A program made the position numbers and the translations under genes. A DNA stretch of 64,000 nt, taken from positions 62,001 to 126,000 of the forward strand of contig NZ_SJEE01000004.1 in assembly GCF_006937785.1 (NCBI RefSeq), read 5' to 3'. Below are positions 787-11,420 of this stretch, piece by piece. How positions within the stretch are numbered: position 1 is the first letter of the stretch; every line of letters begins with the position of its first letter. This stretch comes from Pseudanabaena sp. UWO311 (GTDB lineage Bacteria > Cyanobacteriota > Cyanobacteriia > Pseudanabaenales > Pseudanabaenaceae). The notes below the pieces were generated by a model, which was not told where the DNA came from, did not search any database, and saw only the letters and a program-made list of their open reading frames with translations.

Positions 787-815
787 TAGACATTTCGGGA
801 TGAGGGATGTATAGT
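787..815 (+). promoter_or_regulatory. Predicted sigma-70 promoter of a short RNA
   Basis: TAGACA at 787-792 is separated by exactly 17 bases from TATAGT at 810-815. A start site 6 bases after the -10 box falls at about base 821, the first base of the 11-mer GGTGTGAGGAG. No + strand gene follows before 3772, so the promoter would serve a stand-alone short transcript. Confidence 0.5.
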
Positions 816-820
816 ATAGA

Positions 821-892
821 GGTGTGAGGAGCGAACAAAAGAAAAAGCCTAGGAACGAAACAGGGAAAGTAACCTAGGCTTTTTCTTTTGGT
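821..892 (+). ncRNA. Candidate small RNA with a Yfr1-complementary 5' end
   Basis: The predicted transcript starts with GGTGTGAGGAG (821-831), the exact complement of the CUCCUCACACC core known from the cyanobacterial small RNA Yfr1. It then folds into a perfect 17-bp hairpin (837-853 with 873-889, 19-base loop) ending in a T-rich tract, which looks like an intrinsic terminator. No start codon lies at a useful distance from the GAGGAG, so it is probably not coding. It could instead be a member of a known family such as Yfr2, which I cannot check here. The rest of 666-999 holds two more hairpins and no gene. Confidence 0.4.
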
Positions 893-902
893 TACCGTTA
901 AT

Positions 903-942
903 AAAAAAGAGAGAGTAGCTAATAGCTGCTCTCTCTTTTTTT
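903..942. terminator. Hairpin with A-run and T-run flanks
   Basis: An AAAAAAGAGAGAG arm pairs with CTCTCTCTTTTTT around an imperfect apex (TAGCTAATAGCTG). The flanks would give a U-run in both directions, so it may be a bidirectional terminator between the short RNA and the minus-strand DUF2288 gene. Confidence 0.5.
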
Positions 943-2323: not shown

Positions 2324-3481
2324 CTAGATAGCCTTCGGTAAAGTCATAAGACCGATCGCATTGACAACATTAATCCTTGGCAATCGATTCTTAAACCCGC
2401 AAAGAATTTCCCATGAAATCGTACCTAATAGATTAGCCCAGTCGTCAGCAGTATTTTCAGATTCGCCACCCAAAAATGTCACCACATCGCCAACATTTAT
2501 ATTGGGAACATGAGTTACATCGATCGCACATTGATCCATCGTGATTGTGCCAATCTGAGCAACTTTTTGACCGTTTACTGCCACACGAATCCGATTAGAC
2601 AAACCGCGAGGAATACCGTCTGCATAGCCGATCGCTACAGTTGCCATTTTCATATCTTGTGCGGCGATGAATGAGCGACCGTAACTAACACTTGTCCCTG
2701 CCTTAATTTCTTTGACTTGAGTAATCCGAGCCTTGACCGTGAGCGCAGGACGTAGATCAACAATATTTTTGAGATGGGGCGCGGGATAAAGTCCGTATAG
2801 TCCTAAACCAGTTCGTACAATGTCGTAATGGATTTGGCGATCACATAGCATCGCGGCTGTATTGCAAATGTGAATACGAGGCGGATAGATCCCTTCAGCT
2901 TTGAGTTCTGCAATTACTTGCTCAAATCTTTGGGTTTGTAATTGCATGAAAGTGCGATCGCTGTCATCGGCAGTAGCAAAGTGCGAATAAACGCTCATTA
3001 TTTCTAAATTAGGTAAATGCTGCACCAGTTGAGCAAAGGCGATCGCCTCCTGCCAATTTACCCCTAGCCGTGACATGCCCGTATCAATTTTAAGATGGAC
3101 AGGAACTTGCTCGCCAGTTTGAGAGAGCACTTCGTGATAAATCAGTGCTTGTTTAGGATTGCAAATCGTCGGTTGTAATCGATACTCTGCGATCGCCTTA
3201 ATCTCATCAACGCCATTAGTCGCACCTAAAACCACAATTGGCGCTGTAATTCCTGCTCGACGCAACTGAATACCTTCAGGAATTGTGGCAACACCTAACC
3301 AAGTCGCTCCTGCCTCGATCGCAGATTGACTAACATCAATTGACCCATGTCCATAGGCATCAGCCTTTACAATCGCCATTAGCTCAGTTGGCGAAGTCAG
3401 CAAGGATTTTAATTGATGCACATTATGCTTAATTATCGAGAGATCGACTTCCACCCAGGCCCGATGGTTTTGCTTGAGCAT
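2324..3481 (-). CDS. alr: Alanine racemase
   Basis: A PLP enzyme that interconverts L- and D-alanine and so supplies D-Ala for peptidoglycan. The PLP lysine is in AIVKADAYGHG near the N-terminus, the general-base tyrosine is in VAIGYADGIPR, and the fold-III domain plus C-terminal beta domain are complete (385 residues with the start used here). I chose the ATG at 3481 because GAGGAG lies about 9 bases upstream; an in-frame TTG 39 bases further upstream would place that ribosome site inside the coding region. It stands alone, with a MITE-like repeat right after its stop. It is a cytosolic homodimer in the family. Confidence 0.95.
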   Translation of the reverse strand: MLKQNHRAWVEVDLSIIKHNVHQLKSLLTSPTELMAIVKADAYGHGSIDVSQSAIEAGATWLGVATIPEGIQLRRAGITAPIVVLGATNGVDEIKAIAEYRLQPTICNPKQALIYHEVLSQTGEQVPVHLKIDTGMSRLGVNWQEAIAFAQLVQHLPNLEIMSVYSHFATADDSDRTFMQLQTQRFEQVIAELKAEGIYPPRIHICNTAAMLCDRQIHYDIVRTGLGLYGLYPAPHLKNIVDLRPALTVKARITQVKEIKAGTSVSYGRSFIAAQDMKMATVAIGYADGIPRGLSNRIRVAVNGQKVAQIGTITMDQCAIDVTHVPNINVGDVVTFLGGESENTADDWANLLGTISWEILCGFKNRLPRINVVNAIGLMTLPKAI

Positions 3482-3771
3482 TACAGCGCACTCCTCATAC
3501 GTTAATCTGGTTTGCAGCAACTACGATAATGCAAACCTCTAAATTGTTTTTAGCTTGCAAGACGTTATATTAATTTGATTCGGCAAAAACACGCTTGTCT
3601 TTCTAGCAAGATCTGTAACAAACTCAAATCAGCTTTTGATAGCCCCCATAATTCTCAGAATAGAAACCAAATCTAAGTTTATCGAGTCTTGTTTAAGACC
3701 AGCATCGCCAAAACTAGATTTACAATGAGAATTGCGATCAGTATTTTTACTTAGTCTAATTATCTATACTT

Positions 3772-10300: not shown

Positions 10301-10311
10301 GGTGTGAGGAG
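10301..10311 (+). promoter_or_regulatory. mraY ribosome-binding site inside an 11-mer complementary to Yfr1 core
   Basis: GGTGTGAGGAG ends 5 bases before the mraY ATG and includes the Shine-Dalgarno GAGGAG. The same 11-mer starts the candidate small RNA at 821. It is the exact complement of CUCCUCACACC, the unpaired core of cyanobacterial Yfr1, so mraY is a candidate Yfr1 target. Confidence 0.45.
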
Positions 10312-10316
10312 CGGCA

Positions 10317-11420
10317 ATGGTTGATACTGGTGTGAGAGTTAGGAAAGCAAAATTTCCGACAGGAAGTAGCCTAGCACTTGGTTTAGCAATCGGTTTAATA
10401 AGTTTAATTGTTGGTGTCGATCTTTTCTTGAATCCTAATATAAGTTCAAGTCTGCTGCTGCCATTCACGTTTGGGGGGGCTGGAGTTGCATTTTTAGGTA
10501 CTTTTGCTGTTCCAGCTTTACGTCAGCTTAAGGCGGGGCAAATCATTCGTGAAGACGGACCACAAGCTCATCTCAAGAAACAAGGCACACCGACAATGGG
10601 TGGGATATTTATTATACCTGTCGGAATTTTATTAGCGCTAGTATGGTCTGGCTTTAATGACAAAGTAATAGCTTGTAGTTTGCTAACTGTATCTTTTGGC
10701 TTTATCGGATGGCTAGACGATTGGAAAATTTTGCGTCGTCACTCCAATAAAGGCTTGTCTCCGCGCTCCAAGATTTTCCTGCAAGCATTTTTCGCCGCTT
10801 GTTTCTGTGCATGGCTAGGGCTAACCCAAAACTGGCAAGCGATCGCTACGATTAATTTGCCATTGCACTTTGTGATCCCCCTCGGATTGCTGTTTTTCCC
10901 TCTCGCTTTGTTTGTATTTCTTGGGAGCAGTAATGCTACAAATCTAACCGATGGCTTAGATGGATTAGCAGGTGGTACGGGTGCGATCGCCCTATTTGGT
11001 ATGGGGCTACTACTGTTTCCTCAGAACAAAGAACTAGCCATTTTTTGCATGTGCCTCAGTGGTAGCTATTTAGGATTTCTCTGGCACAATCGCTATCCTG
11101 CCCGCGTATTTATGGGTGATACGGGATCGCTAGCTCTAGGTGGTGCACTTGCCTCGACTGCGATACTTGGTAATTTGCTCTGGGCATTTCTGATTATTGG
11201 CGCAATTTTTATCTGGGAATCAATTTCGGTGATTGCGCAGGTTTCTTATTACAAAGCAACCAAAGATGAAACTGGGATGGGCAAACGTCTTTTCAAAATG
11301 GCTCCTTTTCACCATCACCTAGAGCTAAGTGGCTGGCATGAGCTACATGTGGTTAGGTTCTTTTATCTAACAGGTGGTTTTTTGGTTGGGATCGCTATTG
11401 TAGTTAGTAAACTCCCTTAA
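10317..11420 (+). CDS. mraY: Phospho-N-acetylmuramoyl-pentapeptide-transferase
   Basis: It transfers phospho-MurNAc-pentapeptide from UDP to undecaprenyl phosphate, making lipid I in the inner membrane. It has about ten transmembrane segments and the family signatures GTPTMGGIFI, GWLDDWKILRRHSNKGLSPRSK (catalytic aspartates and basic loop), SNATNLTDGLDGLAGG, FMGDTGSLALGG and the late HHH of FHHHLELSGW. At 367 residues it is slightly longer than the Escherichia coli protein, with a short cytosolic N-terminus. The start is set by GAGGAG five bases upstream. It stands alone and not in a dcw cluster, as usual in cyanobacteria. Confidence 0.96.
   Translation: MVDTGVRVRKAKFPTGSSLALGLAIGLISLIVGVDLFLNPNISSSLLLPFTFGGAGVAFLGTFAVPALRQLKAGQIIREDGPQAHLKKQGTPTMGGIFIIPVGILLALVWSGFNDKVIACSLLTVSFGFIGWLDDWKILRRHSNKGLSPRSKIFLQAFFAACFCAWLGLTQNWQAIATINLPLHFVIPLGLLFFPLALFVFLGSSNATNLTDGLDGLAGGTGAIALFGMGLLLFPQNKELAIFCMCLSGSYLGFLWHNRYPARVFMGDTGSLALGGALASTAILGNLLWAFLIIGAIFIWESISVIAQVSYYKATKDETGMGKRLFKMAPFHHHLELSGWHELHVVRFFYLTGGFLVGIAIVVSKLP

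Follow-up and report, generated by a model that had tools for sequence, protein, structure and literature searches.

The window, a stretch of 64,000 nucleotides from Pseudanabaena sp. UWO311, spans 62001-126000 on contig C38 of a genome of 5.21 Mb (99.98% complete) and carries near its start a putative small RNA gene, designated yfr2 (Table 1). A lipase-like gene lies upstream of it, and orf101 and a uracil-DNA glycosylase gene lie downstream in convergent orientation; a near-perfect long inverted repeat at 961-1011, around the 3' end of orf101 (minus strand), is probably the terminator of orf101. The promoter that an earlier note on this DNA had proposed was present in the window sequence, with TAGACA and TATAGT separated by a 17-base spacer, and both boxes were conserved in the genus. 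The 11-mer GGTGTGAGGAG was located at the predicted start (821-831). As the note had also held, no credible ORF overlapping the 787-892 element was found on the + strand. Promoter-like matches alone were not significant (7 found in 3 kb versus 5.6 expected from shuffles), and the 10-mer GTGTGAGGAG alone was not rare, with 8 copies genome-wide; thus, neither was used as evidence by itself, and the evidence is the combination of the promoter, the 5' motif, the stem, the loop, and their conservation. For the 11-mer GGTGTGAGGAG, about 0.004 copies per strand were expected in the window, and two were observed, at 821 and 10301.

Table 1. Features of the yfr2 locus, the predicted Yfr1 target sites in the window, and the Yfr1 gene region of the same genome
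Feature	Position	Strand	Remarks
-35 box TAGACA, yfr2 promoter	787..792	+	Region 783-796, mean identity 0.94 (25 genus genomes)
-10 box TATAGT, yfr2 promoter	810..815	+	Region 807-816, mean identity 0.96
yfr2 small RNA gene	821..890	+	Start predicted; Cyano-1 match 818-889; model R1 E 3.5e-11
Unpaired 5' motif GUGUGAGGAG, complement of Yfr1 core	822..831	+	Invariant in genus
CGAAC, invariant in its Yfr2 subtype	832..836	+	GAAC can pair with GUUC beside Yfr1 core
5' arm of 17-bp stem	837..853	+	Genus substitutions all compensated
12-nt loop GAAACAGGGAAA, second conserved Yfr2 motif	857..868	+	Invariant in genus
3' arm of stem, U-rich	873..889	+	From fold
Second hairpin, A and U runs on its flanks	903..941	+	-25.3 kcal/mol, z -7.8
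Weaker predicted Yfr1 target site GTATGAGGAG	3479..3500	-	Upstream of likely ATG of alanine racemase gene
Predicted Yfr1 target site GGTGTGAGGAG	10301..10319	+	Five bases upstream of mraY ATG
Yfr1 core	Contig C13, 248559-248568	-	CUCCUCACACC, exact 11-base match to Yfr2
trxA, downstream of Yfr1	Contig C13, 247796-248098	-	

When folded as RNA, the segment 821-892 gave an unpaired 5' end and a single long stem (-26.9 kcal/mol, z = -6.1 versus shuffles); the hairpin spanned 836-890, and 821-835 was unpaired in the MFE structure. The stem under the 12-nt loop was 17-18 bp in length, and the loop was closed by two pairs followed by an internal loop (A854 / A871-A872), which places the interruption at -3/-4. 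The earlier note had taken this hairpin for a 17-bp intrinsic terminator. A hairpin is indeed there; it is a conserved Yfr2 stem-loop of which the loop itself is a motif, and the second hairpin (903-941) may be the main terminator. A comparable hairpin was also seen in the genus alignment, and the second hairpin is a probable terminator, possibly for both strands. The 3' end of the RNA may lie at about 890 (in the U-rich 3' arm) or at about 943 (past the second hairpin), and the RNA is most likely 70-120 nt in size, with its own sigma-70-type promoter.

With Rfam at default thresholds, zero matches were obtained in the window. Under a permissive threshold, the Cyano-1 model (RF01701), which we take to be the Rfam model of Yfr2 in agreement with the motifs in common, matched 818-889 over its full length (E = 0.0014 in a stretch of 501 bases and 0.0034 genome-wide), and this was by far the best Cyano-1 match of the genome. 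The Rfam comparison that the note had suggested therefore gave a full-length match, at a score (31.7 bits) under the gathering cut-off of 41 bits, which is a curated threshold and no biological feature. This cut-off under-calls the family, since only five of the 18 sampled loci with both Yfr2 motifs scored above it, and 13 scored below. The other Rfam matches in the region (mir-318, rpsL_ricks, and others) were far below their cut-offs and on simple palindromes, and were rejected.

Two motifs were described for the Yfr2 of Synechocystis, one an unpaired stretch at the 5' end and the other a central loop of 12 nt (PMC2662882). Both were present at the locus, the former at 822-831 and the latter at 857-868. 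The loop, which settles the family, had been missed by the earlier note, as had the second copy of GGTGTGAGGAG before mraY. About 85,000 species genomes were scanned for GTGTGAGGAG followed by GAAACANGGAAA within 5-35 bases, and 82 stretches were obtained; their titles were all cyanobacterial except for one Gracilibacteria MAG. The exception (L028, filed as a contig of a Candidatus Gracilibacteria MAG) has a Yfr2 of the typical cyanobacterial kind; the contig probably entered the Gracilibacteria bin as a cyanobacterial contaminant.

A BLAST search with 770-960 detected the locus in 25 of the 26 Pseudanabaena genomes. A covariance model (R1) built from 54 members found yfr2 once each in the same 25 genomes (E of about 1e-11), and gave only a chance-level match in the 26th (82% complete). 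Note that, as R1 includes the window sequence and its relatives, its score is not independent; the single-copy result is still informative. No further Yfr2 copy was found in the genome with R1 or Cyano-1, and the only other Cyano-1 match (contig C18, 17.5 bits) was rejected as a second Yfr2 for want of either motif. At least one flanking gene (lipase-like, orf101, or uracil-DNA glycosylase) was common to 24 of the 25 loci. Compared with the window, the 25 genomes had an identity of 0.94 (-35 region), 0.61 (spacer), 0.96 (-10 region), 0.97-1.0 (RNA), and 0.30 (past the second hairpin). The 11-mer noticed earlier is found exactly at 821; however, position 821 is G or A in the genus, and thus the conserved motif is only the 10-mer at 822-831. 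From base 822, four versions of the RNA occurred among the 25 genomes, and all differences between them were in the stem, where both sides had changed and the pair was kept. A cultured strain, Pseudanabaena PCC 7429 (L048), has an RNA identical to that of the window. Among the subtype members from other genera (n = 14, 13 distinct), 97.7% of the cells paired, and nine of the 17 pairs had two-sided changes, versus 1-4 in slid controls.

By the published definition, Yfr1 has two stem-loops, 16-20 unpaired nt with ACUCCUCACAC between them, and a 3' terminator, and trxA is commonly downstream (PMC2190773). A gene on contig C13 agrees with this definition in its stems, motif, terminator, and same-strand trxA: a 5' stem of 8 bp (GCGGAGAC-GAAA-GUUUCCGU) is followed by 19 unpaired nt (UCACUCCUCACACCACAUU), a 3' hairpin, and a U-rich tail. 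Its terminator region (L004 1346-1479) is tandemly repeated (unit of 72 bases, 1.9 copies, 95% matches), and more copies of the repeat were seen in several relatives. The 11-mer at 821 had been read as the complement of a Yfr1 core, a proposal to which a Yfr1 gene without a matching core would have been fatal; the Yfr1 of this genome holds CUCCUCACACC, exact over 11 bases, and the core was invariant in all 25 orthologues retrieved from the genus. Yfr2 821-831 is predicted to pair with CUCCUCACACC with zero mismatches, GAAC:GUUC being possible after one C.A mismatch, and its conserved part GUGUGAGGAG with CUCCUCACAC(C). The gain on cofolding of Yfr1 and Yfr2 was -25.6 kcal/mol, with each partner open in its own fold; shuffling gave no information on the energy of the unconstrained duplex, since the intramolecular arms dominate it.

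Other candidates for Yfr1 were rejected. The guaB locus (L093) had no core nearby, Yfr1 being upstream of trxA on another contig, and the core in L002 was in an unremarkable intergenic context. A second exact core (L003 1500-1560, contig C4:59919) has a terminator-like hairpin 3' of the core and is located upstream of genes for a small secreted protein and an efflux-type membrane fusion protein. It was rejected as the Yfr1 gene, being clearly present in one relative only, in which the core is CTCCTCACAT; it is possibly a Yfr10-like RNA.

Yfr2 has been reported to pull down Yfr1 and Yfr10, to lift the repression that Yfr1 exerts on a porin reporter in E. coli, and to prevent the binding of Yfr1 to ppa mRNA (PMC6778093), and Nostoc Yfr2 likewise binds Yfr1 (PMC6974561); Yfr2 is thus a known Yfr1-titrating RNA (PMC6778093, PMC6974561). 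By analogy with this work on Prochlorococcus MED4 and Nostoc PCC 7120, the Pseudanabaena Yfr2 likely sequesters Yfr1, so that the mRNA targets of the latter become free, and the titration suggested in the earlier note gains support via this membership. The promoter would produce an RNA with the unpaired 5' end GGUGUGAGGAG, which would form 11 base pairs with the Yfr1 core CUCCUCACACC, itself unpaired; Yfr1 would thereby be taken off its mRNA targets, and their ribosome-binding sites, that of mraY among the likely ones, would be released as a result.

Two predicted targets are in the window itself. The GGTGTGAGGAG of mraY (10301-10311) is an exact Yfr1 site at the ribosome-binding site, and its 10-mer was exact in 19 of the 26 genus genomes, with one or a few base changes in the remaining seven. 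The site before the likely ATG of the alanine racemase gene (2324-3520) is one mismatch from the Yfr1 complement; because GAGGAG resembles a ribosome-binding site, this match is weak by itself. In Nostoc, mraY and alanine racemase are verified Yfr1 targets, and judging from the sequences, both are likely Yfr1 targets in Pseudanabaena. The predicted pairing energy with the Yfr1 core was -29.4 kcal/mol for Yfr2, -25.4 kcal/mol for mraY, and -18.5 kcal/mol for alanine racemase; since the pairing of Yfr2 is the strongest, it should be able to compete with both mRNAs.

An element that ends in hairpins between convergent genes could also be a transcribed leader or a mere terminator between the lipase-like and uracil-DNA glycosylase genes, with no independent small RNA, and some Synechocystis Yfr2 copies use the start site of a downstream gene too (PMC2662882). 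However, here the gene downstream lies on the other strand, the boxes of the element's own promoter are conserved in comparison with the variable spacer, and a plain terminator would not hold the 5' end and the loop invariant; we regard this explanation as very improbable. It is scarcely credible that a separate small RNA family converged on the Yfr1-complementary motif. The Rfam score under the cut-off and the different apical closing pairs are in line with convergence, but the element shares its stem and both its 5' and loop motifs, in order and spacing as well, with clear Yfr2 members, of which some reach the Rfam cut-off, and intermediate forms exist in neighboring lineages (L070, L088).

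A further explanation accepts a Yfr2 RNA and assigns it another main role, in which the GAAACANGGAAA loop is the main active part, with mRNAs or a protein as its targets, and the pairing with Yfr1 mainly neutralizes Yfr2. The loop is conserved as strongly as the 5' motif, CRAFD-Seq gives Yfr2 targets of its own, and RNase E can cut off the 5' part of Yfr2 and leave the loop (PMC6778093). Nevertheless, the 5' motif is just as invariant and has an exact match in Yfr1, and the two roles can coexist; we consider a mainly loop-based role possible and rather unlikely. The anatomy, the motifs, their conservation, the compensated stem, and the Yfr1 gene with the exact core lead us to conclude that the locus is very probably yfr2, the only small RNA gene of the Yfr2 family that we found in this Pseudanabaena genome, and that its 5' end would pair with Yfr1 and so free mRNA targets; for binding, titration, and target release, this reading draws on the published work. 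Membership in Yfr2, which the earlier note had offered as one possibility, is borne out by both motifs, the full-length Cyano-1 match, and the R1 match.

The sampled Yfr2 RNAs (L011-L092) were roughly of two types after the 5' motif, a UAA-type and a CGAAC-type, and the second loop-closing pair was usually U-A in the former and A-U in the latter. The genomes with a GUUC-bearing Yfr1 had a CGAAC-type Yfr2 in five of five cases; five genomes without GUUC in Yfr1 were also of the CGAAC-type, and extended GAAC:GUUC pairing was therefore not supported as the general cause of CGAAC conservation. As CGAAC is invariant yet several Yfr1 are without GUUC, pairing with Yfr1 alone fails to explain the conservation. 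A distinct CGAAC-type subfamily with a second partner besides Yfr1 is a tentative idea that we hold with low confidence. Because the CGAAC-type is the sole Yfr2 found in Pseudanabaena, a single deletion could suffice to isolate its function.

According to published surveys, almost all cyanobacteria have Yfr2, and thus its presence in Pseudanabaena is expected; our literature search found no paper naming Yfr2 together with Pseudanabaena. The gene is a new, well-conserved member of an already known family and comes from a genus in which the members fall short of the Rfam cut-off; yfr2, its Yfr1 partner, and the probable cell-wall targets (mraY and alanine racemase) are united in one genome. The Yfr1-Yfr2 titration model is hard to test genetically where Yfr2 is multi-copy; with one Yfr2 gene found per Pseudanabaena genome, it is testable by single-gene deletion.

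Small RNA sponges of other bacteria form a general class in which an RNA mainly acts by binding another small RNA. Yfr2 would work like them, which is a likeness of mode with no claim of homology and with no RNA-chaperone dependence seen. Yfr1 is the partner of Yfr2 and no relative: it holds the exact complement CUCCUCACACC in this genome, two stem-loops flank its motif, and it acts as a repressor, Yfr2 being its titrator. The Yfr2 RNAs described in publications measure about 80-95 nt, are abundant, and are transcribed from their own start site. With the Yfr2 family (Yfr2a-c of Synechocystis PCC 6803 and Yfr2-5 of Prochlorococcus MED4), the Pseudanabaena RNA shares the unpaired 5' GUGUGAGGAG, the long stem, the 12-nt GAAACANGGAAA loop, a promoter of its own, and the complementarity to Yfr1; the 5' hallmark of the family, single-stranded GUGUGAGGA(G), is the motif unpaired here at 822-831. 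The Pseudanabaena RNA differs from other Yfr2 in that its loop has two closing pairs and an A.A mismatch, whereas three pairs and a bulge are usual, in that CGAAC follows the 5' motif and the score is below the Rfam cut-off, and in that a single copy was found per genome, its location being conserved in the genus.
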